IMG/VR virus record: IMGVR_UViG_3300046804_002082
Location: 1 to 57,200 of that record
Strand: one strand, 5' to 3'
DNA length: 57,200 nt
Source of the DNA: a virus
The translations under genes were made by a program, and so were the position numbers. Positions 21,101 to 45,934 of this stretch are shown here, piece after piece. How positions within the stretch are numbered: the first letter of the stretch is position 1; each line of letters begins with the position of its first letter. Below the pieces are notes generated by a model. It had not been told where the DNA came from. It searched no databases and saw only the letters and a list, made by a program, of their open reading frames with translations.

Positions 21101-24100
21101 TCGATGAAAATGGCGGTCAAACTTTCCCAAAACAAGCAGAACCTTCTGATGTAAAATCATCTCTTGGAGATATTGGTCAAGCGGCTAGAGAAGAGCATAA
21201 GCGTCGTACAGAAAAGACTGCTAAACAAAGAGTTGCTGAGATATACAATAATGTATTTGAAAGAAATGAGGAGGCTAGACAAGCATTTAAGAAAGCAGAT
21301 ATGCCTTTCTCTATGTACTCTATGTATCTAAAGGCTGGCGCTAGTCCATTTGCAATGAAGAAGTTTGCTGATGCATACTTTAATATCTATGGCGGGTTAA
21401 ATGAGAAGCAGATACATAACTTGGATAGCGTTATTTTCTTAGAACGTGTAATCGCTATTGATGAGAACTTTGATAATCGTGGCAAGAAAAGACCTGCTCA
21501 CCCAGATATTATAGAAAACAATGGTACAAGAAGGGTAGTTAATCGCGAATCAGCAATCGCTGAATTGGATGCTTACGAAAAAGCTTTTGGCAAAGAATAT
21601 GTTGACGATTTACGCGCAAGAGCAAAAGAATACTTCAATACTTTTTCAGAGATATTGAAATACAAGTATGACAATGGATTAATTAGCAAAGAGACGTATG
21701 AGCTTTACAAAGACTATAATTATTCTCCTCGTAAATTCATAGAGCATATTGTTGATGTAAATGGAGTGCCAGTAAATGCTTATATAAATAGAGGCATCAA
21801 ACTAGGGGCAGAAGAGATTAAGAACATTACTACTGGTAGCACAGACTTGATGTTAATTAATTCTGCTGACCTATTAAAGATGGCAATGATTTCTGCTGAG
21901 AATAGAGTATTCACTAATCGTGCGCTTAAATTTATCTTTGAAGAGGGTGTAACTCGTAACAATAATATTGTTAAGGATGCTAAGGTTGTTAAATTAAAAG
22001 ACGGAACAATTAAGCTAGACAAAGATGGAGTTCCAGTTGTAAAGCAAAAAGCGGATGAAGGATTTGTATATAAAACTTATCGTGATAATAATGGTAAGGC
22101 TTATACATTCCAAATGAGAAGCGACATTGCTAAGCAGTTTGATGATTCTGACATATCTAATAATAAAGAAACATACAAAAAAATATTAGCTTGGGTTTCT
22201 GGTGCGCCTATCTTGAGAAACTTAGCGGTAACATTAAACCCATTCTTTGGATTAGTCAACCCTATTATTGACTTAGGAACTCAAGTTATGTTTAGCAATA
22301 CATACAAGGGAGCTGGAAGGGGTTTATTAGCACAATCATTTGCAGCTACAAAAGAGTTTGTGAGCATTACCAATGCAATGATAGGTATGGATTTATCTGC
22401 TTCAAAAGTTGGTAAAAAATTTGGTCTTTCAGAATCTGCTAAGCAAGGAGAGATTCGTCAACTTATGGAAGAATATGGTGTGTATGGTGGATTTATGACG
22501 ACTCAAAGTGAGGTTGGGCAAGATGCGAATAAACTTGCATCGGCACTAAGTTACTATGGTAACGTGACCGAGATTGCGGCTAAGTTATCTGCATACAAGT
22601 TCTTGAAACAGACGATGTTAAATGATTTTGCTAAAGAGAATATTGACCCAGCTACTGGTGAATCTATCGAGCCTAATGAGAAGCAAATGAGAGATATTAT
22701 GATTTCTGCTGCTTATCACGCAAGAGCAACACTTGATTACAATCGTGGAGGAAAATGGGCTAAAGATATGAGTCAGTATATCCCATTCTTAAATGTAAGC
22801 TTACAGGTTAAAAAAGTCGGAGGTCAGTATATTGTTGATAACAAGGCAGATTTTATAAGAAAAATGGCTGATGGTATTTTTGTGACAGCGGCGATTACTT
22901 TAGCTAACTTATTGATTAGTGACGATGATTATGAAAAGGATAAGAGAATAAAGAGAGACAAGGTAGATAAGACTATTATTATGTTACCTTTCTTATTAGA
23001 AAATGGAGAAAGAGCGTATGTTGCCTTACCTACCCCTAGCTTTGCTAAAGTATTCTTTAATGCTGGACAAGTAATGGCTGAGCAGATTTACTATGATGCA
23101 GTTGGGAAAGTCAATCCAAATGAAGGAAGTTCGGTGTCTAAAATTATTGAGAATAACTTCAGTATGATGGCTCGTGAGATTAAGGGTACATTTATGCCTA
23201 AAACTATTCAGGCTACAATTTCCTACTTAGCCAACTATGATTTCTGGACTCAAGATAGATTGACAAAGGATGAAAGAATGGTTGCATCTCAACAAGGTTA
23301 TGGCAACGAAAATATTATGTCTTCTTTAAAGCTTATTGCTCAGGGATTAGATAAATTAACCGATAAGGAAGGCATTGGATACGGTGGTGGCGCATTTACA
23401 TTCTCTCCTGAGAAATTACAAAAATCAATGGAGGTAATTACTACATCTCCAACATATAATGGTCTTGCTAATACAGCATACTGGATGTTAGACAATTTAT
23501 TCCAAGCTGGGCATAAAGTAATGCTTGGCAAAGATATTGATGAGAAATTGAAATCTAAATTCAATACTCAGACCGTTATGGAAAATATTGCAGATACATT
23601 CGGGAAAGGATTTGGTAGACTTGTAAGATTTACAGACCCATCTAAGTACAACTTGCCAGACTTTGATGCTAATCAAGATTTAAAAGAAGAGATTAATTTA
23701 GTTGATGCGCGCCTTGATACTAAGAAGAGCATTATGTATAAAGACTTAATGAAAATCTACGATGATAGCAAGGAGCAAAAGAATGCTGGCGAGTTTATCA
23801 AGAAAGAAGTTGAGGCATATAGAGATAAGATTAAAGACCCTAGAGAGTATAACTACATAAATAGTCTTGGTCAGCTTTTGATTGACAGAACAAAAGTTCA
23901 ATTAGGAACAAATGTTGACAAGTATTATATGATTTCTACTGAGGCTAAGGACGCGCGCGCAAAAGCTTTTGCTATCTGGAAAAACTTTGGAGATATCAGA
24001 GGCAATGAGGCTTTGCTTAATGACCTTAAAAATATAGGAATTGACCAATCTGTTATTAACCAATATCGTGGAATCTTAATTCAAAATAATATGATTGAGG

Positions 24101-25215
24101 TTGATAAAGATAGAAAACCTATTTATGAAGAATGGTATAAGTCTATGATTAATGCTTTACCTAAAAAATCTCCTACACCTCCATTAAGTGCAGTTGGTAC
24201 ACCATCAAATGGAGTTTCAGTTAGCGCTGTAGCAAACACAATTAATGCATCTGAAAAAGTTTCAAGTGCAGTGGCTAATATCTTTAATGCGTTTGGCGAT
24301 GAAATTACTGGTGTAGGAGATAAGGTTGCAGATAAGATAAATGTTATCCATAAAGCAATTGAGGCTAATCCTATTTATCAGAATGTAAAAGAGGTTGCGG
24401 CTAATCCTGATTTAATCCTAGCGGCTATTCAGAGAGAGATTGACAAGAGAGATGAATCAGGAACTGTATCTAAAAAGATTGTTGTTCCAAAGCAGGTTAC
24501 GCCTGAGTTTTCACTAACAGGTGGTAAGCCAATAGTAGCGTCTGATACGGTTAATTTGGGAAATATGCGAGGCTCAAATTCTGAATACTTAGCAACTTCG
24601 TCTATCACAGACTTGAATAAAGTTAATGTTGGTGAGCGTAATCGTGGGGATTATAAAGAGGGACAAGGGAATATAATTGCAAACTTTTTAGCACCATTCA
24701 CTAAGCCAGAAAACTTGAACAACAATGATATGTATGTTGGAATTAAAGATGGCAAATTGGTAACAGGGAATGGCTCAAAAGTTAAGGATGCCCAATCGGT
24801 GACTAAAACTCCTTTTGCTCAAGTTGTTGAAATTACAGACGAGTTAATTAAAAACCAGTCTTATTTGTTTCCGAAATTAAAGACTTTAAAAGAAGGTCAG
24901 GAAAATAAGCTAAATATTTCAGCAACTAGAGAAGGCAAAGGTGATGCGAACAACAAATTTGCAGGTGGAGCAACTATTATTGAGACGCCCGATGGCTCAC
25001 AAAAATATTTAGTAAGAGGCAGTTTAGACCAAGTTAAATCAGCATTTAATGATTTAAAAAAGAATACTAATAGTCCTTATTTAAATATGTATATATTAGA
25101 TAATGGTTCATTCTCTACGGGATTATTTACGGGAGATAAAAAATCTACCGAAGAAGAATTGAAGGCTTACGAGTCAAAAAATATTAATGGAGGACACGGA
25201 ATTTATTTAAAATAA
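15139..25215 (+). CDS. Giant polyvalent virion protein: metallopeptidase, WCTG domain, beta-solenoid, LPD38-like region
   Basis: 3358 residues. Order of parts: two copies of IVDLSEF at residues 8-14 and 26-32; a Gly/Ala-rich hydrophobic stretch ~250-290; a charged helical part ~480-540; a zinc-peptidase motif HEIVHA (His851, Glu852, His855) with acidic EEVQAEEF downstream; a KWCTGSSDS motif (Trp1335) followed by FYMFVD and IAVKYN strands; a regular repeat region ~1535-1975 of short alternating Leu/Ile strands, like a solenoid; a helical part; a hydrophobic NPFFGLVNPIIDLG segment near 2360 and NRGGKW near 2535 followed by YIPFLN, which resembles LPD38 of phage polyvalent proteins; and a terminal domain ending in GGHGIYLK. 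Such proteins are packaged and ejected into the host. Domain names other than the peptidase motif are inferred from patterns. Confidence 0.88.
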   Translation: MSKQQTRIVDLSEFGGAPSKTEAPKIVDLSEFTQKKNLNETPNADTGLFGGMFSTAGGSDKNEISKKFFNAMSYAKGLFSSDDSPEVKQPLTYGQQPEGGFRAVSTAIKTFVPQTIASVSAVAGGVLENIINDAKDVADFYSGTSDYSIGNFFTNLEKQAKIADETVKQKGNTVSTALSLEHQGHDHLKSSESIAAPLYDLAAEAQKSADVLFDVSQKQWGIKEENRNKSIFDLTAEGDYKDAFKIAGLGVARSMPQSIALAMTGGSAGVFAGAGISAGGAELAKEYSQTGDITGEDAFRAIGYGVGEGLSEMLFQGDLMAIKSLGKSIFNLTDDAVKASVKTLVKEEGKQVAKEKIARSFLDGGISKMLKGGLEEGVEEIAATVSNFAVDRILDGNISGADYNKLMKDAVDSFVIGAMSGGLMSGSAALATHNPLSKEQQQRVDKFMEVANNEELSQEVRDMAKSKADEIIKYDADRHYAEYTQLANLPLQDRIKAVAISNEIKTLEENKKEIKDVETISEIDKKIEEKSQEVKDIIDNHTLNLADEVINSNEAIDGKVAFSNETQLNVNPDTGYVFHFDSPNEVPAELKKIEPISSGVIAGRDKSVFRVAYTGQDLINAGLATQASEITPEQVSQASADVETTANTVQEILDKAPDTLGNIPSMFQEQEGKTIAQQIAEEYQKAKQDNSNPELVSQVESAITNSLTAPTMAAQPVIAPKPKRKRNVQTLRGMKPTEGVELTDNIVNDFTGVLGKMSRGTKQVLQNYVKALKSVRPEAKVFYYEDAVAMEKGLKNSGFSPSKAKSLASSSGGLFTTVNDGGEVIIHVNRQADLSKKGQDAGQQSNLILAHEIVHATLLELARTNPSEFKNMRDSLLTMLAKDEAANEEVKAFVERYSNQSEEVQAEEFLAQLGALLTRQKATLQRSTLDKIKLAIRQFLQKVAGKFRSKALMDLVDSEVFAETAKIEDTAQFLEGLGKSLREGTDINMKYIKNLVKGSKEYQAGLRYSVIENAPSIPQGMDANTLMDNDMVVEPENVKQSVDEGNWTDNAENRKRMTKYMSTIKGMTEDDIWLAKAIAYNENKGVKLYTLKDKESVIAALENQLNNIVQSLDNEIVGQYEFANEGTLWESNGGYLFTGWKPEYIANRIILFKNDLNTNEVLRWTEIRDNENYHKQEVGVIREMQKNALLANIKEFNGHNDFDPAFSYMLINSMIYNKYQVANEETGEIKVFKYKQNQLSSTDATYASLQYSVAKALYDSEKSRNSADEIGIQYQKTYMNMDKLNVQNSKFAKYIDKKSSTGEGYWLKFPKGDNPEVAYDLFEIAKTSHKYPAKWCTGSSDSTAASQLRGGDFYMFVDSKTGDARIAVKYNNDSIGEVRGLGEGQAILAKDSGIIEEISDTFKDGKSYESYSKTLNDTKKIAKEFFTKEEFETFQEKNTSGDSLLGNSNNFIKYIGDNFSVDDIARILIEEDRSYNQSDYFLQNIQGEINSYLKLILENKGESPYAIVHNFFTSPSNLGTINDVKYVIDYLSIDEDVNFENLIYAKNIGINDGELTANKLKTVNNLQIENGALYSKSLEIASDIDAREGDIIVPNLKKVSDLKIGLFGNGINDFSSLEQASRISININSNNVKFDFPKLISANRISFKGGTEIASKSEINLPSIDGKIKTLTLSGYNGSDVNVNINKNVVTEIENIIISDSIENELSINAQRADIREINVYEGQLNINLEDGANIKLIDGTGTVAINNVTENENFTTDIKTASLHKSAKLIFGENQTVSMDEVEMRNDSSIDGKVNFINTLRIYNPSITTLSVGQIEKLKVNAGMLMLRDNKYIDLLNINGATASISSERIGVAEGFSSQLLASNLQSVDGLLFQLNETSELFLPNLIKVNNRLTLSGKANSSKINLSKLNEATQLDIYDDKFELLSLKNAKIITLKSGTLEARQLQSTSIVTLEDGSDLYAPQLKNGYKLQSLYGEFNPNENNNRIFDENGGQTFPKQAEPSDVKSSLGDIGQAAREEHKRRTEKTAKQRVAEIYNNVFERNEEARQAFKKADMPFSMYSMYLKAGASPFAMKKFADAYFNIYGGLNEKQIHNLDSVIFLERVIAIDENFDNRGKKRPAHPDIIENNGTRRVVNRESAIAELDAYEKAFGKEYVDDLRARAKEYFNTFSEILKYKYDNGLISKETYELYKDYNYSPRKFIEHIVDVNGVPVNAYINRGIKLGAEEIKNITTGSTDLMLINSADLLKMAMISAENRVFTNRALKFIFEEGVTRNNNIVKDAKVVKLKDGTIKLDKDGVPVVKQKADEGFVYKTYRDNNGKAYTFQMRSDIAKQFDDSDISNNKETYKKILAWVSGAPILRNLAVTLNPFFGLVNPIIDLGTQVMFSNTYKGAGRGLLAQSFAATKEFVSITNAMIGMDLSASKVGKKFGLSESAKQGEIRQLMEEYGVYGGFMTTQSEVGQDANKLASALSYYGNVTEIAAKLSAYKFLKQTMLNDFAKENIDPATGESIEPNEKQMRDIMISAAYHARATLDYNRGGKWAKDMSQYIPFLNVSLQVKKVGGQYIVDNKADFIRKMADGIFVTAAITLANLLISDDDYEKDKRIKRDKVDKTIIMLPFLLENGERAYVALPTPSFAKVFFNAGQVMAEQIYYDAVGKVNPNEGSSVSKIIENNFSMMAREIKGTFMPKTIQATISYLANYDFWTQDRLTKDERMVASQQGYGNENIMSSLKLIAQGLDKLTDKEGIGYGGGAFTFSPEKLQKSMEVITTSPTYNGLANTAYWMLDNLFQAGHKVMLGKDIDEKLKSKFNTQTVMENIADTFGKGFGRLVRFTDPSKYNLPDFDANQDLKEEINLVDARLDTKKSIMYKDLMKIYDDSKEQKNAGEFIKKEVEAYRDKIKDPREYNYINSLGQLLIDRTKVQLGTNVDKYYMISTEAKDARAKAFAIWKNFGDIRGNEALLNDLKNIGIDQSVINQYRGILIQNNMIEVDKDRKPIYEEWYKSMINALPKKSPTPPLSAVGTPSNGVSVSAVANTINASEKVSSAVANIFNAFGDEITGVGDKVADKINVIHKAIEANPIYQNVKEVAANPDLILAAIQREIDKRDESGTVSKKIVVPKQVTPEFSLTGGKPIVASDTVNLGNMRGSNSEYLATSSITDLNKVNVGERNRGDYKEGQGNIIANFLAPFTKPENLNNNDMYVGIKDGKLVTGNGSKVKDAQSVTKTPFAQVVEITDELIKNQSYLFPKLKTLKEGQENKLNISATREGKGDANNKFAGGATIIETPDGSQKYLVRGSLDQVKSAFNDLKKNTNSPYLNMYILDNGSFSTGLFTGDKKSTEEELKAYESKNINGGHGIYLK

Positions 25216-38315: not shown

Positions 38316-38543
38316 TTATTTATTAGTTCTTAATTGTTCGATTTGGTTTAAAAGTTTTTGTGAGTCAGCATTAGCCTTCTCTAATAGATTTTTATAAGCC
38401 TCGCTTAAACAATACAATTCAGATATCAACTCGTCTCTCAATTCCCACTCCTCCATTTCTGCATAGCATTCCATTTGCTCGTAGTCGATTGGGGATAAAG
38501 TACAATCCTTGATTGCATTTAAAATTTTTACTCGTGTACTCAT
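38316..38543 (-). CDS. Hypothetical protein, last gene with hairpin leader
   Basis: 75 residues, helical (IKDCTLSPIDYEQMECYAEM). Its start is seven bases downstream of hairpin element 1. No family recognised. Confidence 0.66.
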   Translation of the reverse strand: MSTRVKILNAIKDCTLSPIDYEQMECYAEMEEWELRDELISELYCLSEAYKNLLEKANADSQKLLNQIEQLRTNK

Positions 38544-38550
38544 TGTTTGA

Positions 38551-38575
38551 ACGATTGCCTATACATCGTGAGGTT
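38551..38575 (-). promoter_or_regulatory. Hairpin leader element 1 (ACGAT stem)
   Basis: RNA sense: AACCTC, then stem ACGAT, loop GTATAGGCA, stem ATCGT. Seven bases before the ATG at 38543. Confidence 0.85.
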
Positions 38576-38583
38576 CTAGGTTA

Positions 38584-38829
38584 TTAAATAGAATGTGATG
38601 CAAAAGCTAAGTGAGCCATATCTTCGTAGTCATATTTCTTGGGATAATGAATCCGTTGCAAGTTATATGGGGTAGCGTCAAGACCATACTCGCAAGTGTA
38701 ACCGACTGCTCTTAATTCGTCAATCAATTCATTGCACCGCTCGTAAGAATATACATCGTCGGCATACCGCTCAATGATTTCAGTCACGTTTGCGGGCAAT
38801 AGTTCGGGGTATTCAAATAAGTCTTTCAT
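38584..38829 (-). CDS. Hypothetical protein
   Basis: 81 residues, acidic, with many Tyr (IIERYADDVYSYERCNEL). Its start overlaps the upstream stop (ATGA). Its stop is eight bases before hairpin element 1. No family recognised. Confidence 0.66.
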   Translation of the reverse strand: MKDLFEYPELLPANVTEIIERYADDVYSYERCNELIDELRAVGYTCEYGLDATPYNLQRIHYPKKYDYEDMAHLAFASHSI

Positions 38830-38978
38830 TGTAATTGCATTAAAAGGATTTCGATATTATTAATAAGGTTTTCTTCTTCGGAAAAATCTTCCGCTACATA
38901 CTTTCTATCTTCTAAAAGAGTTCTCAACTCTTCTAGGTTCTCGCGAATTACATCGACGATTGCATCTTGTTTAGGCAT
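38826..38978 (-). CDS. 50-aa acidic helical peptide
   Basis: ATG at 38978 overlaps the end of the upstream gene by eight bases. The product is helical (IVDVIRENLEELRTLLEDRK) with repeated leucines. No family recognised; it completes a gap-free three-gene unit led by hairpin element 2. Confidence 0.58.
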   Translation of the reverse strand: MPKQDAIVDVIRENLEELRTLLEDRKYVAEDFSEEENLINNIEILLMQLQ

Positions 38979-39495
38979 CTTGTTGTTCTTTAATTAGTGC
39001 TTTTAGGAATGAGGAAACACTGCACGTAAAATGAGTCGATTCAATTAATGATTCGATTGAATCGTACGTAAATGAAGAATGCAGACCCATCTCATATTTA
39101 ATATTATGTTTGCATTCATAATTATATTCACCTACTCTCTTATTTGAATAATCTATAAATCCGTGCATCTTAATCATCTCTTCGCCTCTTATTCTATAAG
39201 ACAATGAATGACCATAATATCGTCCCGTCTCTTGCCACACGGGTTCTAATTCAAAACCTAACTCGTCGAAATAATCAGATAGCTTTTGCAAGTTACTTTC
39301 TATTTCTAGGCGTAACATTTTTACCCTAGCTTTTGCAACTTTATTCTGCTCATCACAAAAAGATTTGTCGGATTGCAACTCTTCTAGAATAGGTACTAGT
39401 GGGTTGCTTGATGATACCTTCGTAGTATTCATCTGCTTAAACTCTTCGATTAAAGAGTCAACAATTTTAGATTGGTTTGGGGTTAAATTTTTCAT
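38971..39495 (-). CDS. Hypothetical protein
   Basis: 174 residues. N-terminal long helix (NLTPNQSKIVDSLIEEFKQM), a coiled-coil centre (ARVKMLRLEIESNLQKLSDY) and a mixed C-terminal part with GRYYGHSLSYRI. Start is 12 bases behind hairpin element 2, and the bases between resemble the ACCAAACCAAA leader. No family recognised. Confidence 0.7.
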   Translation of the reverse strand: MKNLTPNQSKIVDSLIEEFKQMNTTKVSSSNPLVPILEELQSDKSFCDEQNKVAKARVKMLRLEIESNLQKLSDYFDELGFELEPVWQETGRYYGHSLSYRIRGEEMIKMHGFIDYSNKRVGEYNYECKHNIKYEMGLHSSFTYDSIESLIESTHFTCSVSSFLKALIKEQQDA

Positions 39496-39507
39496 TTGGT
39501 TTGGTTA

Positions 39508-39532
39508 ACGATTGCCTATACATCGTGAGGTT
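39508..39532 (-). promoter_or_regulatory. Hairpin leader element 2 (ACGAT stem)
   Basis: Identical core to element 1 (ACGAT, GTATAGGCA, ATCGT); 12 bases before the ATG at 39495. Confidence 0.85.
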
Positions 39533-39538
39533 ATTGGG

Positions 39539-39754
39539 TTAAACTTCTTCGCTATTTGTTAGAAACATAATTGATGTAAGCGTGGTATTATCATCTTCAT
39601 CGTATAGGTCTTCTTCTACCTCATACACAATCTCTTCATCTGAATCCCTATCGTATCTATAATAGATATGCACATTGCTTAAATCAAATTCCTTTTGAGT
39701 TTCCAGTAGGAATTCTAATAACTTTTTTGCAGTCAAAGGTTTTTTGTTTTTCAT
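39539..39754 (-). CDS. Hypothetical acidic protein
   Basis: 71 residues from the ATG at 39754 (MKNKKPLT); the in-frame ATG inside the hairpin is not used in other units, so the downstream start is taken. Acidic, with a YRYDRDSDEEIVYEVEEDL stretch. No family recognised. Confidence 0.66.
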   Translation of the reverse strand: MKNKKPLTAKKLLEFLLETQKEFDLSNVHIYYRYDRDSDEEIVYEVEEDLYDEDDNTTLTSIMFLTNSEEV

Positions 39755-39761
39755 AATACTG

Positions 39762-39787
39762 ACGATTGACCTATACATCGTGAGGTT
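39762..39787 (-). promoter_or_regulatory. Hairpin leader element 3 (ACGAT stem)
   Basis: Stem ACGAT/ATCGT, loop GTATAGGTCA; seven bases before the ATG at 39754. Confidence 0.85.
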
Positions 39788-39794
39788 AAAGTGA

Positions 39795-39992
39795 TTAAAT
39801 AGTAAATTGCATAAAGTAGTTTATCATACAATCGTAAAGGCTCTCATATCCGTCATTAGAAGGCGACGCCAAGAAATCCTCATACAATGTAATTATCTCG
39901 CCGAAAGCTAAATCATATTCTAGTTCGACATCAATACGCTCATAGGCATAAGCCAACTGCGTGAACAAAAAGAAATCATAATCGTATTTCAT
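39795..39992 (-). CDS. Hypothetical acidic protein
   Basis: 65 residues from the ATG at 39992. Aromatic and acidic (YDYDFFLFTQLAYAYERIDV). No family recognised. Confidence 0.64.
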   Translation of the reverse strand: MKYDYDFFLFTQLAYAYERIDVELEYDLAFGEIITLYEDFLASPSNDGYESLYDCMINYFMQFTI

Positions 39993-39999
39993 AATACTG

Positions 40000-40025
40000 A
40001 CGATTGTCCTATACATCGTGAGGTT
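40000..40025 (-). promoter_or_regulatory. Hairpin leader element 4 (ACGAT stem)
   Basis: Stem ACGAT/ATCGT, loop GTATAGGACA; seven bases before the ATG at 39992. Confidence 0.85.
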
Positions 40026-40031
40026 AAAGGT

Positions 40032-40181
40032 TTAATTAGTTAAATCGTAATAGCTGTCAGCATAAAAATTAGCTACGTTTATTAGCTTATCTACTAACTG
40101 CGGAACATCTAGTTCTTCTACTTTAATTGCATCGTCATCGTCTAAAAGATTTTTCAATGCTTCAATAAGTTGCTCTCTCAT
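40032..40181 (-). CDS. 49-aa acidic protein
   Basis: Starts at the ATG at 40181 (MREQLIEALKNLLDDDDA); the longer frame would run through the hairpin. No family recognised. Confidence 0.6.
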   Translation of the reverse strand: MREQLIEALKNLLDDDDAIKVEELDVPQLVDKLINVANFYADSYYDLTN

Positions 40182-40191
40182 TGTTTTATTA

Positions 40192-40217
40192 GCGATTGTC
40201 CTATACATCGTGAGGTT
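40192..40217 (-). promoter_or_regulatory. Hairpin leader element 5 (ACGAT stem, one mismatch)
   Basis: Stem ACGAT/ATCGC (outermost pair lost), loop GTATAGGACA; ten bases before the ATG at 40181. Preceded by its own TATATTTG box. Confidence 0.82.
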
Positions 40218-40229
40218 TTTAGTGATACC

Positions 40230-40237
40230 CAAATATA
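40230..40237 (-). promoter_or_regulatory. Promoter -7 box TATATTTG, minus strand
   Basis: Plus-strand CAAATATA in the gap before hairpin element 5. A transcript from here would start some 6-8 bases before the AACCT of the element, so the element would lie at the RNA 5' end. Confidence 0.6.
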
Positions 40238-40249
40238 GGGCGGTAAAAA

Positions 40250-40537
40250 TTATTCTGCTGAAATAGTAGACGAATCCGCTGATTGTGTAGACGAAATATC
40301 TTGGCTTGCTGAATTGTTGCTAGTGATATTATTTCGTCGTGCATAAGCCTTTGCCCAACCTAGTTGCGCTATTGTTAATTGCTCGTTAAACGTAGCGTAC
40401 TTTGCCATTTTGATAATCTTATTGTGTTCGGTATCGGCTTGGTACACATAGTTCTTTTGAGCGCATTCATAGACCGCTTTCATTAGGGCTTCGTTCTCTT
40501 TATAAATACGTGTTGATTCTTTATTAAATGTAGGCAT
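40250..40537 (-). CDS. Hypothetical protein with Ser-rich tail
   Basis: 95 residues. N-terminal helical domain (TRIYKENEALMKAVYECA, then IAQLGWAKAYARRNNI) and a Ser/Asn/Thr-rich C-terminal tail of ~25 residues. No family recognised. Led by hairpin element 6. Confidence 0.66.
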   Translation of the reverse strand: MPTFNKESTRIYKENEALMKAVYECAQKNYVYQADTEHNKIIKMAKYATFNEQLTIAQLGWAKAYARRNNITSNNSASQDISSTQSADSSTISAE

Positions 40538-40545
40538 ATTGTTAG

Positions 40546-40570
40546 GCGGTTTCCTTTACACCGCAAGGTT
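40546..40570 (-). promoter_or_regulatory. Hairpin leader element 6 (GCGGT stem)
   Basis: AACCTT, stem GCGGT/ACCGC, loop GTAAAGGAA; eight bases before the ATG at 40537. Confidence 0.83.
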
Positions 40571-40577
40571 AAGGTTA

Positions 40578-40781
40578 TTAGTCGTTGTTAATCTGATTTT
40601 GTAATTTTTCTATCCAATGATTGGGTAGTTCTACGCAACTGATTACTATCTCATTTGCATAGCAATCAGCAATAGCCTCATCTTTACTGCCAAATATAAT
40701 AATGTCTCCCATTCCGTCTTGCAATGGATTGTCGTTTGCTTTATCATAAACAACAAAGTCGTATTCAGATAATTTTTTCAT
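40578..40781 (-). CDS. Hypothetical protein
   Basis: 67 residues. The pattern YDFVVYDKANDNPLQDGMGD, then IIIFGSKDEAIADC looks like a small alpha/beta domain of the 'D-x-G...F-x-S-x-x-E-A' kind seen in many phage early genes. Function unknown. Confidence 0.66.
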   Translation of the reverse strand: MKKLSEYDFVVYDKANDNPLQDGMGDIIIFGSKDEAIADCYANEIVISCVELPNHWIEKLQNQINND

Positions 40782-40789
40782 AATCTTAT

Positions 40790-40814
40790 GCGGTTGCCTC
40801 TACACCGCAAGGTT
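40790..40814 (-). promoter_or_regulatory. Hairpin leader element 7 (GCGGT stem)
   Basis: Stem GCGGT/ACCGC, loop GTAGAGGCA; eight bases before the ATG at 40781. Confidence 0.84.
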
Positions 40815-40821
40815 AAAATGA

Positions 40822-41247
40822 TTAGTAATTGTAAAGGTCTTCCCACCCGTCTACTGCTTTCGGTACGCTAGGCATCTCTCTTCTGTCCTCGTCGTAGTTG
40901 ATTATTAACTGCACTACCTCTTGGGTATTTGTTAGTCCCAATTTGTAATACTTATGAAATTCGTCAGCATCCATATTAGCAAAGTCAGAATGAGCGAATG
41001 AATGCAAATGATAGTAGTTCCACGTGCCGTCACAATCTCCGTCACAACCCGTATGCAAGAAGCCGTAAGTTGTTGACCCGTCTCTTATTATCTTGACAAA
41101 GTAATGAATACCTTCGCCACCCGTAATAATCGTATCAGTGAACTGAATGAGTTCCCCCCTTAATGATACGGGAACAAACAAATCTCTTTGATAATCGTGA
41201 ATATTCCAATTAACAAATTCTCCTAATCTCATTGCAAGATTTTTCAT
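40822..41247 (-). CDS. Hypothetical protein
   Basis: 141 residues from the ATG at 41247. Contains FLHTGCDGDCDGTWNYYHLH, a His/Cys/Asp-rich stretch that might bind metal, between beta strands. No family recognised. Confidence 0.68.
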   Translation of the reverse strand: MKNLAMRLGEFVNWNIHDYQRDLFVPVSLRGELIQFTDTIITGGEGIHYFVKIIRDGSTTYGFLHTGCDGDCDGTWNYYHLHSFAHSDFANMDADEFHKYYKLGLTNTQEVVQLIINYDEDRREMPSVPKAVDGWEDLYNY

Positions 41248-41257
41248 AATAGTAATA

Positions 41258-41283
41258 GCGGTTGACCTATCCACCGCAAGGCT
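41258..41283 (-). promoter_or_regulatory. Hairpin leader element 8 (GCGGT stem)
   Basis: AGCCTT, stem GCGGT/ACCGC, loop GGATAGGTCA; ten bases before the ATG at 41247. Confidence 0.84.
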
Positions 41284-41298
41284 AAAATGATTAGTGTT

Positions 41299-41841
41299 TT
41301 ATTTTCTACTAGCAATTGTTCGCCAATATGAGTGACCTTTCTTTGTGTTCTCCCAACTAAACGCTCCCGCAACAAACGGGTAAAGACTATCCTCTTTATT
41401 GCGCTCAATATAGTCGTTTGTATAGCCAACCCTATCCGCATTTAATTCGTCAACGAACTCAACCCACTCGTCATAGCTTAACAATTCTAGCACATCCTTT
41501 TGCAAGCAAGCTACCTCAATAGGGTATTTGGCACGCTCTATTTGTACTATATCGTTGTCTAATGAGCCGACCTCATTTAAGAAAGTTGCCTCTATTTTGA
41601 AGCCCTCAAACGTACCCTTAATATCAAGGTATTTGTCAGTCTCGCAACCGCCGTCACGACTTGTAAGGGTTAACGTATCGCTCATTAATAGCTTAGTAAA
41701 CATATCAATTCCGTTACCCTTTTTTAGGTAGAAAAACAAGTCAAGTTCTCCGCTAGACTTGACACTCAAATTGATTACGCTAGCCTCGTTTGGCTTCATC
41801 AATTCCACAAACTTTGTAAGGTTTTTTGTTGCTTGCAACAT
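41299..41841 (-). CDS. Hypothetical protein
   Basis: 180 residues from the ATG at 41841 (MLQATKNL). The first half is beta-rich (SVINLSVKSSGELDLFFYLK); the second has helices and ends in AFSWENTKKGHSYWRTI, a motif in which FSW.....H..W resembles endings of other small genes of this region (for instance the PEGADYWREI of 37925). No family recognised. Confidence 0.7.
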   Translation of the reverse strand: MLQATKNLTKFVELMKPNEASVINLSVKSSGELDLFFYLKKGNGIDMFTKLLMSDTLTLTSRDGGCETDKYLDIKGTFEGFKIEATFLNEVGSLDNDIVQIERAKYPIEVACLQKDVLELLSYDEWVEFVDELNADRVGYTNDYIERNKEDSLYPFVAGAFSWENTKKGHSYWRTIASRK

Positions 41842-41852
41842 AAGATTAATAT

Positions 41853-41878
41853 GCGGTTGACCTATACACCGCAAGGTT
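41853..41878 (-). promoter_or_regulatory. Hairpin leader element 9 (GCGGT stem)
   Basis: Stem GCGGT/ACCGC, loop GTATAGGTCA; 11 bases before the ATG at 41841. Confidence 0.85.
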
Positions 41879-41883
41879 CTAGA

Positions 41884-42177
41884 TTAAAAATGAAAATCAA
41901 AATCAACTTCTTTGCCCTCTACTATATCTTCCTCTTTCCATACGTTTACCTTAAAGTCAACGCCCTTGTCCACTAGCCAAATCATAAGGCTTTTCTCTTC
42001 CATAGTCAACCTTTCTATTGACATAGTTTGTTCGGTAGAAAAATCCCTATTATTTGTGTACTCATAAAATCCAGTGTAGATTGTTTCACATTTCTCTTGA
42101 ATCCAATCTGCTTTAATCTTAAAGGTTTTCTCTCGGTACTCTCCTTTAAAAACGTAAGTGTATGATGTAATAATCAT
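41884..42177 (-). CDS. Hypothetical protein
   Basis: 97 residues from the ATG at 42177 (MIITSYTYVFKGEYREKTF). It is beta-rich and acidic at its C-terminus (EGKEVDFDFHF). The longer frame runs through the hairpin and is rejected. No family recognised. Confidence 0.67.
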   Translation of the reverse strand: MIITSYTYVFKGEYREKTFKIKADWIQEKCETIYTGFYEYTNNRDFSTEQTMSIERLTMEEKSLMIWLVDKGVDFKVNVWKEEDIVEGKEVDFDFHF

Positions 42178-42187
42178 AAGGGTAAAA

Positions 42188-42219
42188 TTCGGTTTAGCGA
42201 CCACCGAAAAGCGTAGGTT
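42188..42219 (-). promoter_or_regulatory. Hairpin leader element 10 (TTCGGT stem variant)
   Basis: AACCTACGCTT, stem TTCGGT/ACCGAA (6 bp), loop GGTCGCTAA; ten bases before the ATG at 42177. Same position and spacing as the others with a different stem and loop. Confidence 0.75.
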
Positions 42220-42236
42220 TATATAATAATTAAACT

Positions 42237-42491
42237 TTAATCTGCTAGCGCCCAAAGTTCATAGACGTCGTCGTAGGTTAATCCGTACATCTCCGCAAGG
42301 CGTTCAAACAATCGCTCTCGCACTAAGCTATCCGTGACCTCTATATAGTCATAGACCTCTTTCTTTAAGCATAGCGTCCCGTAAAGACCTAGAAACGTAG
42401 CCGTCTCATTTAACTCCGCACCTAACTCGTCGGTCGGGAATGTCTTTGTGTAATACTCTTTGATATTATCCGTCATCAAAAATGTTAACAT
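42237..42491 (-). CDS. Hypothetical acidic protein
   Basis: 84 residues, helical (YYTKTFPTDELGAELNETAT, then VRERLFERLAEMYGLTYDDV). The first ATG at 42491 keeps the ten-base spacing to hairpin element 11. No family recognised. Confidence 0.67.
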   Translation of the reverse strand: MLTFLMTDNIKEYYTKTFPTDELGAELNETATFLGLYGTLCLKKEVYDYIEVTDSLVRERLFERLAEMYGLTYDDVYELWALAD

Positions 42492-42501
42492 AGTTTTAGT
42501 G

Positions 42502-42526
42502 GCGGTTGCCTATACACCGCAAGGTT
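42502..42526 (-). promoter_or_regulatory. Hairpin leader element 11 (GCGGT stem)
   Basis: Stem GCGGT/ACCGC, loop GTATAGGCA; ten bases before the ATG at 42491. Confidence 0.85.
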
Positions 42527-42533
42527 AAAGTGA

Positions 42534-42746
42534 TTAATATAATGTTATACTTTTAAGGTCTTTCTCGTTGATTATCGTGGTCACGATTGTGCATTTATGA
42601 CCATAAATCTTTTTGCGCTCTACCATAGCCTTTATAAAGTCTAGGTTTGCCGAATAGGTAGGCTTCCACCCTTCGATTCCGTTCCACGTATCATCACGTA
42701 GGTCTAGTTGAAAACCACGTTGGTTTACGATATGATATACTTTCAT
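42534..42746 (-). CDS. Hypothetical protein
   Basis: 70 residues, alpha/beta (MKVYHIVNQRGFQLDLRDDT, then IKAMVERKKIYGHKCTIVTT). No family recognised. Confidence 0.67.
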   Translation of the reverse strand: MKVYHIVNQRGFQLDLRDDTWNGIEGWKPTYSANLDFIKAMVERKKIYGHKCTIVTTIINEKDLKSITLY

Positions 42747-42756
42747 AATACTAGTG

Positions 42757-42781
42757 GCGGTTGCCTATACACCGCAAGGTT
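42757..42781 (-). promoter_or_regulatory. Hairpin leader element 12 (GCGGT stem)
   Basis: Same core as element 11 (loop GTATAGGCA); ten bases before the ATG at 42746. Confidence 0.85.
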
Positions 42782-42787
42782 AAAAGG

Positions 42788-43051
42788 TTAATTTAAAATT
42801 AATTTTACGTGATATGTATCTACGTCGCCGTATTCATCTAGGACATATTTCTGCCCCTTTACTAATAGCTTTTCGTCTATCGGTTTATTTTGCATTGATT
42901 CTAGCATATCATTTTGTGTTATACTAAACTCACGAAAATTCAATAAATTAGAATAAGCCATAGCTATAAAGTCCCCTCGCTCATTAAGATACCAATCCAA
43001 GAATTTTTCGCGGTCAATGAGCAATGTGTCTGTTAATTCATAAGTTCTCAT
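42788..43051 (-). CDS. Hypothetical protein
   Basis: 87 residues from the ATG at 43051 (MRTYELTDTLLIDREKF). Alpha/beta; no family recognised. Confidence 0.66.
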   Translation of the reverse strand: MRTYELTDTLLIDREKFLDWYLNERGDFIAMAYSNLLNFREFSITQNDMLESMQNKPIDEKLLVKGQKYVLDEYGDVDTYHVKLILN

Positions 43052-43058
43052 AATAATA

Positions 43059-43084
43059 GCGGTTGACCTACACACCGCAAGGTT
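43059..43084 (-). promoter_or_regulatory. Hairpin leader element 13 (GCGGT stem)
   Basis: Stem GCGGT/ACCGC, loop GTGTAGGTCA; seven bases before the ATG at 43051. Confidence 0.84.
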
Positions 43085-43106
43085 TTAAGATTGTTGCTAG
43101 TGAAAA

Positions 43107-44069
43107 TTATTTGGCGGTCTCTAATATTAAAGCTACCGCCTCTTGTGACTTTTTGCTTGACTGCATAATCAAGTTCTTGTCGTCGTTGATTGCCTTAATC
43201 CACCCGTTAATATAGGCTTGACTATTTTTAAAGTCGTCAACCTTGCAATCAATTCCCGTGATAGCTTCTAGATAAAGCGCACCCAACTCCGCTACTAATT
43301 CCTCCTTTGAGTAATTCTCGCTACCGAAATTTGCCGTCGTGTCTAGTCGGTTAAGGCGTGACTTGTGTCCCGTGCTATGGATAGCCTCGTGAAAGAATAC
43401 CTTGTAATAATCCCCGCTTGACTGCCACTGCTTGTCCGTCTTTTCGGGCATTTGAATATAGTCCCCGCTAGGGCTATAAAACGCTTGTCCTTGCTTGCTA
43501 TGTTTAAGCGTGACTACACTAGACCACCCTTTTAATATAGCCTCCGCGCTAGCTACCGCCTCCAATTCGGTTGCCTCTTCTTCTACTAGATTGGGCGTGT
43601 CGTGAGGTAGGTTCGTTTGACTGATTGACCATACTTTCCACTGCTTCAAGTAGAAAGATTTGCGGGCTATTTTCTTGTCCGCTTCGGGTACTTTTGCTAG
43701 GGTAGGATAGTAGGTAGTTTTCCCGTCCTTGTCCACTGCATAGCTGATTTGCCACATAAAGATATCCGTCCCCTTTTCCCCCTTATTAATTAAGCCCTCA
43801 CATTTTTGGATATGGGCAAACGTGTACCACTTGTTGACCCAATTGTTTTCTAAGGCTATTGCCGAAAGAATAAATTGATTCCAACCTTTGTACGGGCGTC
43901 CATAAGCGGACAACGCTTGAAAGCTACCCGTCACGCCGTCCTTGAAAGGCTTAAACCACTGCAATCCCTTGTCTTTGAGACCCGCTATAACCTTGTCGTT
44001 AATTGAGTCAATGATTTGCGCTTGTGTTAATTTTGGTGCGCTTGCAAATGTTTTTTTAGCTACTGCCAT
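43107..44069 (-). CDS. ArdC-like antirestriction protein (ssDNA-binding + zincin domain)
   Basis: 320 residues from the ATG at 44069. The N-terminal ~130 residues (GLQWFKPFKDG, ALSAYGRPYKGWNQF, INKGEKGTDIFMW) are the ArdC-N domain, which binds single-stranded DNA. The C-terminal domain is a zinc peptidase-like domain: HEAIH (227-231) followed by STGHKSRLNR and EELVAELGALYL, which supplies the third ligand. ArdC-type proteins protect entering DNA from host restriction and are often carried by conjugative elements and in phage polyvalent proteins. It is the largest of the hairpin-led genes. The peptidase substrate is unknown. Confidence 0.88.
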   Translation of the reverse strand: MAVAKKTFASAPKLTQAQIIDSINDKVIAGLKDKGLQWFKPFKDGVTGSFQALSAYGRPYKGWNQFILSAIALENNWVNKWYTFAHIQKCEGLINKGEKGTDIFMWQISYAVDKDGKTTYYPTLAKVPEADKKIARKSFYLKQWKVWSISQTNLPHDTPNLVEEEATELEAVASAEAILKGWSSVVTLKHSKQGQAFYSPSGDYIQMPEKTDKQWQSSGDYYKVFFHEAIHSTGHKSRLNRLDTTANFGSENYSKEELVAELGALYLEAITGIDCKVDDFKNSQAYINGWIKAINDDKNLIMQSSKKSQEAVALILETAK

Positions 44070-44080
44070 AAGATTAATAA

Positions 44081-44105
44081 GCGGTTGACCTACCACCGCA
44101 AGGCT
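44081..44105 (-). promoter_or_regulatory. Hairpin leader element 14 (GCGGT stem)
   Basis: AGCCTT, stem GCGGT/ACCGC, loop GGTAGGTCA; 11 bases before the ATG at 44069. Confidence 0.84.
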
Positions 44106-44111
44106 TAAAGA

Positions 44112-44405
44112 TTATTTGATTGTTTTTAATTCTACCGCGTTGGGCAACGTAGAAAGATATTCAACGTAGCCAACCTCATTTTCCGTAACGAAAGCCCAAT
44201 CGTCATTAATAAATGTTTCTAAGGCGCGACCCATAAAAAATGAAGGCTCGAAATCGTCAAGCGTGTAGGGTGATTTCGCTTCACCCGTCATAGATATATA
44301 ATAATTATTAAGCGCGTCAAGCATTTGCTCCTTGTTGTCAAAGCTAAAATGTAAAGGATGTCCGTCCCCTTTCATTCCTAAAATGTTAAAAATTGCGTAG
44401 TACAT
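44112..44405 (-). CDS. Hypothetical protein
   Basis: 97 residues, alpha/beta (MYYAIFNILGMKGDGHPLHF, then SFFMGRALETFINDDWAFVT). No family recognised. Confidence 0.67.
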   Translation of the reverse strand: MYYAIFNILGMKGDGHPLHFSFDNKEQMLDALNNYYISMTGEAKSPYTLDDFEPSFFMGRALETFINDDWAFVTENEVGYVEYLSTLPNAVELKTIK

Positions 44406-44412
44406 AACAAAG

Positions 44413-44437
44413 GCGGTTGACCAATTACCGCAAGGCT
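44413..44437 (-). promoter_or_regulatory. Hairpin leader element 15 (GCGGT stem)
   Basis: Stem GCGGT/ACCGC, loop AATTGGTCA; the loop has lost AGG. Seven bases before the ATG at 44405. Confidence 0.8.
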
Positions 44438-44443
44438 TTAAGA

Positions 44444-44521
44444 TTAAGATAATAAACTAGCAACGATAAGGGCTAGGGCAACCCGTGCCACTAGACCCAA
44501 CTGAAATTTTAAGTCCTCCAT
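44444..44521 (-). CDS. 25-aa membrane peptide
   Basis: ATG at 44521, one base after the stop of the preceding gene. Short polar start then a hydrophobic helix (LGLVARVALALIVASLLS). The position in an otherwise empty gap supports it, but its length makes it uncertain. Confidence 0.4.
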   Translation of the reverse strand: MEDLKFQLGLVARVALALIVASLLS

Positions 44522-44522
44522 A

Positions 44523-44702
44523 TTACTTACCCTCCTCCACTGAAATACAACCACCTGCCGAAAAGATAGACCCAAACACTAAGAAAGCGAAGCGACCGCC
44601 TACGGGCGCATCTGCTACCCAAGCCAAGTCCCACGCCACAAAGGCGATAAGAAAGTAAAACACTACAAAAATCAAAGCGATAACTTTTACATAGATATTC
44701 AT
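44523..44702 (-). CDS. Two-helix membrane protein
   Basis: 59 residues from the ATG at 44702. Hydrophobic segments at ~5-25 (VKVIALIFVVFYFLIAFVAW) and ~35-50, no charged loop between. An overlapping frame of similar length is rejected because it lacks an ATG at the normal spacing from hairpin element 16. No family recognised. Confidence 0.6.
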   Translation of the reverse strand: MNIYVKVIALIFVVFYFLIAFVAWDLAWVADAPVGGRFAFLVFGSIFSAGGCISVEEGK

Positions 44703-44710
44703 AATAATTC

Positions 44711-44736
44711 GCGGTTGACCTATCCACCGCAAGGCT
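44711..44736 (-). promoter_or_regulatory. Hairpin leader element 16 (GCGGT stem)
   Basis: AGCCTT, stem GCGGT/ACCGC, loop GGATAGGTCA; eight bases before the ATG at 44702. Confidence 0.84.
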
Positions 44737-44741
44737 AATGA

Positions 44742-45029
44742 TTATAATAATTCAGTTAATTTGTGCATATCAATTTCGCATTGAACGAATTCGTAAAGCG
44801 ACTGATAAGCTAGTTCGGTTATATTTGTGCAACCCCCGAAATCCGTTACTCCTAATGCCATAACAATAGCGAAGCAATCAGAATAATAGATACAAGCCGT
44901 GTCAATTTCTTGACTGATATAGTCTTGAATTTCGTCGTAATCAGTCATAAGATTAGTCTTTGACCCAATCAAGTCAATAATTTCTTTTTCTAGTGTTTCC
45001 ACAAAAAGAAAGGGATTAAATTTTTCCAT
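44742..45029 (-). CDS. Hypothetical acidic protein, first gene of the hairpin array
   Basis: 95 residues from the ATG at 45029 (MEKFNPFLF). Acidic with several Cys and aromatic residues (DTACIYYSDCFAIVMALGV). Nearest gene to the parS site and control region. No family recognised. Confidence 0.66.
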   Translation of the reverse strand: MEKFNPFLFVETLEKEIIDLIGSKTNLMTDYDEIQDYISQEIDTACIYYSDCFAIVMALGVTDFGGCTNITELAYQSLYEFVQCEIDMHKLTELL

Positions 45030-45037
45030 AGGAAAAG

Positions 45038-45069
45038 TTCGGTTAAAGCGACAACCGAAAAGCAAAGTT
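45038..45069 (-). promoter_or_regulatory. Hairpin leader element 17 (TTCGGTT stem variant)
   Basis: Stem TTCGGTT/AACCGAA (7 bp), loop GTCGCTTT, preceded by AACTTTGCTT; eight bases before the ATG at 45029. Confidence 0.75.
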
Positions 45070-45077: not shown

Positions 45078-45093
45078 TGTTTCACGTGGAACA
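45078..45093 (-). promoter_or_regulatory. parS: parS-type centromere site
   Basis: The minus strand reads TGTTCCACGTGAAACA, identical to the well-known chromosomal parS sequence of Bacillus subtilis (consensus TGTTNCACGTGAAACA), which is conserved across many phyla. ParB/Spo0J binds it. It lies at the head of the early minus-strand operon, eight bases upstream of the CAACTTTG box. An extra half-site-like ACGTGG/CCACGT inverted repeat extends it. No parA or parB gene is recognised in the window. Confidence 0.8.
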
Positions 45094-45677
45094 TACCACG
45101 TTGCGACTAGATAGGGAAACGAACCCTACACTCACGGGACTAAGCCTAAGTGAGGCGACCAACGTCTAGCCGTTAAGCGTAAACTATCACTAGCGGTAGC
45201 GGTTCAAAAGGGCTAAACCCAATTTATGTACATCCGTTTCATTGCACCCGTTGACCCTACGGGGGTGGGAATTTGATAACTCTGTTTTTTCAGAAAAGCC
45301 GATAAGTCAAAGAACTATTTAAGCATACTTTCGTCCGTTCGGTCGGGGCTATTGACAAACCGCGTTTAGCGCGGTACAAGTACTTATGTTTAACGTCTAG
45401 CCCTCCCCTAGTGAGCCTATCCTTTGCACCACTATTGCAGTGGCTTCGCATCTCCCCCTAATGAGCCAATTCGGGCGTTCGGGGTATATAGCACGCGCCT
45501 CGTTCGGCGGGCTTGTCTCGTGAGCCGTTGCTCCCGTTTGACATTACAAACCTACACAATTTTATATACCCTTGTCAAGTTTTCTTTGAAAAATGCAATG
45601 AATTAGTTCAAATTAGTTGAAAGTTCTTTAAATAATACAATTAGCATAGTAATAACCCTTTCGCCCTATACTGAATT

Positions 45678-45765
45678 CGCGCTACACGCACGATACGCGA
45701 CACGCACGCTACGCGCAACACGCGACACGTACACGCATCACACGCGCGACGCACACGCGCTACAC
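45678..45765. repeat. CpG-rich ACGC/ACACGCG simple-sequence block
   Basis: 88 bp composed almost only of A, C and G in ACGC, ACACGCG and CGCGAC units, bounded at both ends by CGCGCTACAC (45678-45687 and 45756-45765). Stretches alternate purine and pyrimidine. It is highly unlike the AT-rich rest of the window. Confidence 0.8.
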
Positions 45766-45859
45766 TATGAGCAATTTTAGACCCCCGATTTTGCGTCTAA
45801 TGAACTTTCTTTACTAGGGCGGATAGATTGGACATTTTAGGGGGTAAAGTCGCTTAAAT

Positions 45860-45867
45860 CAAAGATA
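45860..45867 (-). promoter_or_regulatory. Promoter -7 box TATCTTTG, minus strand, in control region
   Basis: Plus-strand CAAAGATA. A transcript would cross ~770 bp of non-coding DNA, including the CpG block and parS, before the gene at 45029. It is either a long leader or a separate non-coding RNA promoter. Confidence 0.5.
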
Positions 45868-45934
45868 TGACCCCTTAAATCGAATGCTTTGTTTTGTACA
45901 ATTTTTGTCTAGGAAAAATCCTATATGAATTGTA

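Follow-up and report, generated by a model that had tools for sequence, protein, structure and literature searches.

Seventeen copies of a covarying hairpin leader before the genes of a phage gene block, with relatives in unrelated viruses

The gene block and its leader elements

The IMG/VR virus record IMGVR_UViG_3300046804_002082 comprises 57,200 bases, in which terminal repeats were looked for and none found, and it is treated here at its full length as the window. On its minus strand, from 38316 to 45029, lies a block of small unrelated genes that are served by copies of a short hairpin leader element, and these copies are the subject of this report. Within the block only an ArdC-like gene (43107-44069) could be assigned to a known family. 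The nearest relatives of the terminase, at ~33% identity, belong to a spring-water Caudoviricetes record and to Flavobacterium and Cellulophaga phages, and the host is therefore probably a member of the Bacteroidota. A blastn comparison of the region with isolated phages gave no match.

A preliminary description, made from the letters of the window, had reported 17 leaders, and all of them are present, on the minus strand from 45064 to 38548, as 15 canonical and two divergent copies. The reported stem types also hold: ten GCGGT/ACCGC, five ACGAT/ATCGT and two TTCGGT(T)/(A)ACCGAA. Some particulars required correction. AACCT stands ahead of the stem in most copies, but four read AGCCT; one of the five ACGAT copies, at 40218, ends in ATCGC and has a broken outer pair; and the two TTCGGT copies exist as stems but are without the CCT-n-stem-AGG layout and without relatives in the viral collection, where only chance-level matches were found.

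Numbered downstream from the first gene of the block, and with covariance model scores in brackets, the GCGGT/ACCGC copies are elements 2 at 44708-44737 (36.7 bits), 3 at 44410-44438 (loop AATTGGTCA; at 16.9 bits the weakest canonical copy), 4 at 44078-44106 (before the ArdC-like gene; 29.2 bits), 5 at 43056-43085 (44.6 bits), 6 at 42754-42782 (31 bits), 7 at 42499-42527 (also recovered by the model), 9 at 41850-41879 (46.2 bits), 10 at 41255-41284 (38.2 bits), 11 at 40787-40815 (27.5 bits) and 12 at 40543-40571 (loop GTAAAGGAA; 25.2 bits). The ACGAT copies follow as elements 13 at 40189-40218 (the ATCGC form; 40.2 bits), 14 at 39997-40026 (34.1 bits), 15 at 39759-39788 (likewise recovered), 16 at 39505-39533 (32 bits) and 17 at 38548-38576 (30 bits). 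Both divergent copies were missed by the model: element 1 at 45038-45064 (TTCGGTT/AACCGAA, loop without AGG), which stands 8 nucleotides (nt) before the ATG at 45029, and element 8 at 42188-42219 (TTCGGT/ACCGAA, loop GGTCGCTAA).

A strict rule (CCT, one base, five Watson-Crick pairs and a loop of 9-10 nt containing GG) matches the minus strand of the window 15 times, 14 of them inside the block and one outside it at 22277, against a mean of 0.26 for both strands of Markov-shuffled sequence; the expectation falls to 0.07 if each match must in addition be followed by an ATG at a distance of 5-13 nt. As had been described, a leader precedes every gene or gene group of the block, that is, all 16 genes that are separated from the preceding gene by 20 nt or more, plus the first gene, whereas none of the 25 minus-strand genes that overlap or abut their predecessor carries one. 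Duplication of gene plus leader, which had been offered as the origin of the array, is contradicted by the absence of any homologous gene pair within the block.

Folding and position of the element

The consensus reads ACCUn-[stem 5]-GUAUAGG(U)CA-[stem 5] over 27-30 nt; the loop and the closing U-A pair are near-invariant, while the rest of the stem varies freely. Evidence for pairing comes from a scan of the viral collection with ACCT-N(4-7)-TGTATAGGTCAA, in which the stem letters were left free and the closing T-A was fixed by the pattern. At the spacing of the window copies this gave 45 distinct matches, of which 31 were paired at all five stem positions and 12 at four of five, with stems that include ATGGT/ACCAT, CCGAT/ATCGG, TCTGT/ACAGA, TTAGT/ACTAA and GGGGT/ACCCC. 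Matches at other spacings, which served as the control, were mostly unpaired.

An alignment of 38 distinct sequences carries less weight than the stem-free scan because its members were preselected for at least four pairs, and it agrees with the scan. Paired stem cells amounted to 93.7% versus 79.8% after shuffling, double changes to 35 versus 10, and four of the five stem pairs had changed on both sides. The covariation score of 0.498 (0.223 when shuffled) was reached by none of 500 shuffles and by no slid register. Stems are also exchanged ahead of orthologous genes. The gene behind 39,788 (ACGAT in the window) has a 90% amino-acid-identical ortholog in sequence L036 that carries GCGGT/ACCGC, and the gene behind 42,527 (GCGGT in the window) has a 59% ortholog in sequence L095 that carries ACGAT/ATCGT; both remain paired. 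The stem is thus kept by compensating changes in homologs, as is demanded of a structured cis-acting RNA, and covariation in relatives, whose absence had been named beforehand as a refutation, is present. Judged by this covariation, the element is in all likelihood a folded cis-acting RNA leader. A variant with a 4-bp stem (CCTC GATT GTATAGGTCA AATC) was seen before an ATG at L124:6096 and L141:263.

Its position relative to genes was assessed with 140 distinct elements from 97 sources. An ATG that opens an open reading frame (ORF) of at least 40 aa stands 5-13 nt behind the stem in 80% of elements versus 5% of random positions, and 97 of the 140 follow an ORF of at least 50 aa, at 1-67 nt (most commonly 7) behind its stop codon. 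In a few of the copies that lack such a neighbour, the Bacteroidota -7 box TAnnTTTG is present upstream at a distance of 25-61 nt. Shine-Dalgarno (SD)-like sequences, of which typical element-bearing Bacteroidota phages have none or one, precede genes in contigs L040, L102, L021, L115 and L078, and there the element follows the stop codon of the preceding gene and stands just upstream of the SD. With an SD or without one, it thus marks where the ribosome-entry site begins on its upstream side. It reads in the sense orientation toward the start codon or SD throughout.

The fold may extend beyond a hairpin. The CCU ahead of the stem is complementary to the AGG of the loop, and a scan that prescribed the stem and left the rest open gave 58 matches with both CCT and AGG, 2 with AGG alone, 4 with CCT alone and 155 with neither. 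In addition, the spacer base between CCU and the stem is linked to the fourth stem pair. Where this pair is A-U, the spacer is C in 24 of 25 elements, and the one that deviates is a probable chance match in a gammaproteobacterial metagenome-assembled genome (MAG); where the pair is G-C (34 elements), the spacer is never C. After collapsing to distinct stems the counts are 9/0 versus 1/23. In a plain hairpin the two sites would stand far apart. Such a link is expected in an H-type pseudoknot because the one-base loop crosses the groove of that stem near the pair. Complementarity and spacer link together suggest that the element forms a compact H-type pseudoknot with CCU:AGG as the second helix. 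E. coli 16S helix 45 (CCUGCGGU/ACCGUAGG), a look-alike of the element, was dropped, given that helix 45 of Bacteroidota differs and that the stem letters of the element vary.

Carriers, analogues and probable function

The element is carried by virus records that span 5 to 327 kb, many of them uncultured phages. Among them are Microviridae from capybara, pig and tortoise, in which it follows the capsid gene and precedes the next ORF, the Crassvirales cr50_1 and Kolpuevirus, and Flavobacterium columnare and hattifnatt-type phages; the copy is often the only one in the phage and precedes a small gene. Behind the elements stand 170 distinct ORFs, which group into 109 families. A genome scan found 27 places, the pairing ones nearly all in Bacteroidota assemblies and those in Rhizobiaceae and Gracilibacteria unpaired. 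With lossy filters, three of ~590 Bacteroidota genomes matched, so the element is rare in chromosomes and a general chromosomal regulon was discarded as an explanation. A search of plasmids found none. Some rumen MAGs hold several copies in one contig, before PD-(D/E)XK nucleases and repeat proteins, an arrangement like that of mobile islands. One rumen Bacteroidaceae MAG (L202) carries four copies within 8 kb, among whose downstream genes are those for a PD-(D/E)XK nuclease and a weakly UDG-like protein; this cluster is perhaps a mobile or defence island.

No Rfam 15 family reached its gathering score with the element, all matches being at chance level, and the literature search found no paper that describes the motif. 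Several known systems share some of its features. Riboswitches of the preQ1-I and SAM-II classes are some tens of nt long and have a conserved loop and a variable stem directly before the ribosome-binding site. The element is like them in size, loop, stem and place, but differs in that it has no Rfam match, its downstream genes share no pathway and many copies occur per operon. The MS2 coat-protein hairpin and the T4 RegA and gp32 sites are likewise hairpins or pseudoknots at the starts of phage genes, but they serve one phage's own protein, whereas the element is common to unrelated phages and chromosomes. N4-type hairpin promoters, used by a phage-encoded RNA polymerase, have a 5-7 bp stem and a 3-nt loop, in contrast to the loop of 9-10 nt found here.

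The nearest analogue is the start-associated sequence (SAS) of cluster K mycobacteriophages, a 13-bp repeat that reads GGGATAGGAGCCC, includes the SD AGGAG and is limited to that cluster (PMC3203893). Both are short conserved repeats in one orientation, a few nt before the start codons of non-structural genes, and the 11-19 SAS copies per genome are comparable in number to the present array. The element differs in having a covarying stem and no SD, and in occurring across virus classes; the 13-bp GGGATAGGAGCCC consensus with its SD core is absent from the element consensus. For the arms of the extended SAS (ESAS), little support for RNA pairing was found by its authors (PMC3203893). STAXI (RF01728) is a small repeated pseudoknot-type motif near antirestriction and other DNA-handling genes of Enterobacteriales (PMC2864571). 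The likeness lies in the repetition, in the antirestriction gene nearby and probably in the pseudoknot-type fold, but STAXI copies are tandem at one locus, whereas the element occurs once per gene, fixed to the start codon, and the STAXI family gave no match in the Rfam search. The earlier statement that no element of this form had been described thus holds for Rfam and the literature searched, except that the cluster K sequences are a described analogue. The element is classed here as a start-associated leader element of unusual reach.

As to function, the fixed spacing to the start site indicates translation initiation, and we consider it rather likely that the element acts through a host component to control initiation of the gene that follows. 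In polycistronic phage transcripts, the folded element would lie where the ribosome-entry region of a single gene begins on its 5' side, and CCU:AGG pairing would complete an H-type pseudoknot. It would then be read by a host component, ribosome or RNA-binding factor, and serve genes that lack translational coupling to a neighbour as a portable start module. Its reader is probably of host origin, either the ribosome or some other factor, and not a phage repressor, because six-gene microviruses, crAss-like phages and chromosomes share the element ahead of ~109 unrelated gene families. A factor specific to one phage's regulon, which the preliminary description had allowed for, is at odds with this sharing and with the copies in Flavobacterium phages and chromosomal islands.

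Several observations weigh against control of initiation through a host component or against the pseudoknot built into it. Compensating CCU/AGG changes were looked for and none was found, apart from one U.G case (L161). The link between spacer and fourth pair could reflect few ancestral events or the swapping of whole elements, because the C class varies little in its inner pairs. Folding energies of hairpins of single canonical copies are no more than modestly better than those of shuffles (z -0.6 to -1.6), and the longest exact complement of the conserved bases in 16S rRNA (that of Parabacteroides) is 6 nt. Five other spaced minus-strand genes farther down the window have no element; their leaders differ and are mostly A-rich. 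Finally, in Flavobacterium johnsoniae structure close to a start codon is as a rule a disadvantage (PMC6847099), and this would suit repression or conditional control better than simple enhancement.

The alternative to which we give most weight, although we hold it to be distinctly less probable than the start module, is a translational operator that responds to a ligand, in the manner of a riboswitch, or to a protein, as the target of a host RNA-binding factor. It would switch accessory phage genes together and be recognised by its conserved loop. A near-invariant loop and closing U-A on a freely varying stem is the pattern of a recognised RNA, the window copies are confined to one block while other spaced genes have unstructured leaders, and many phages hold a single copy. 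On the other side, the downstream families share no pathway, Rfam offers no riboswitch match and no known candidate regulator would be shared by microviruses and tailed phages. The translational operator proposed at the outset fits in its spacing to the start codon but has no known regulator. The two readings overlap: restriction to one block and the cost of structure near Bacteroidota starts favour conditional control, and the wide range of downstream genes speaks for a general module. Bacteroidota ribosomes do not use SD pairing. Since their 16S anti-SD is held in a bS21-bS18-bS6 pocket (PMC9976891), it may be imagined that the element is a portable ribosome-entry pseudoknot whose internal ACCU:AGGU helix mimics the SD/anti-SD duplex in cis and lets unrelated phages win initiation for SD-less accessory genes, but this we regard as improbable. 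A site at which a host RNase cuts or is blocked, giving every gene a stable message of its own, would suit the intercistronic copies right behind stop codons and the single copy per spaced gene; we hold it, too, to be improbable, as processing does not need the tight spacing to the start codon or SD, and a strong stem like that of a terminator is absent from the element.

Action as DNA, either as a promoter or operator for each gene (such as an N4-like hairpin promoter for a phage RNA polymerase) or as a single-stranded DNA structure, is very unlikely. The conserved TATAGG is similar to the start region of T7-type promoters, N4 has promoters in hairpin form, and single-stranded DNA microviruses are among the carriers; for the structured STAXI motif, too, a single-stranded DNA form has been proposed as possible (PMC2864571). 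Yet the six annotated genes of element-bearing microviruses include no RNA polymerase, the orientation toward the start codon or SD is strict, most copies lie behind a stop codon inside operons, and a few stand-alone copies have an upstream -7 box and so would be transcribed. A location upstream of the transcription start, raised earlier as the alternative to RNA, is thus disfavoured by the operon-internal copies and by some of the stand-alone ones. Non-functional repeats spread by recombination between phages and kept as scars might explain why neighbouring copies are most alike and why whole element types swap ahead of orthologs, but we give this almost no credence, in view of the compensating stem changes, the near-invariant loop, the fixed ATG spacing and the presence in unrelated virus classes; scars would, moreover, have yielded unpaired stems in the stem-free scan.

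What marks start sites in Bacteroidota is an open question, for which a start module of this kind would be a natural probe; alternatively, the element would be the handle of an unrecognised regulatory factor common to these hosts. It may also provide a small building block for controlling expression in gut Bacteroidota, as well as an aid for annotating the start codons of hundreds of small phage genes.

Surroundings of the block

In the non-coding DNA upstream of the whole block, a candidate Bacteroidota housekeeping promoter (TTGACA...TAGGTTTG) lies at 45547-45578 on the minus strand; about ten chance matches to the full pattern are expected per window, and the candidate is plausible by its position alone. 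Promoters for individual genes were considered and rejected, with four TAnnTTTG boxes in the block versus one upstream and the same chance frequency of the full pattern. Far from the block, at 15139-25215, a single ORF encodes 3,358 aa; its first 787 aa matched no PHROG family, and the product is probably a giant virion or polyvalent protein.

The region at 45100-45900 is a long, non-coding, repeat-rich leader with GTGCG/CGCGT runs and several hairpins. Its part at 45100-45180 (minus strand) contains a tRNA-like stretch (GGCTAGA ... TAGGGTTCGTTTCCCTA TCTAGTC), and in L106 and L036 the arrays of elements are preceded by T-arm-like stretches that resemble it; neither ARAGORN nor Rfam called any of them. 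Directly upstream of element 1, at 45078-45093 (minus strand), stands TGTTCCACGTGAAACA, which is identical to the consensus of the bacterial ParB site parS. It recurs at two sites in L106 and in L110, and the form TGTTCCACGTGGAACA is found in L056 and L095.

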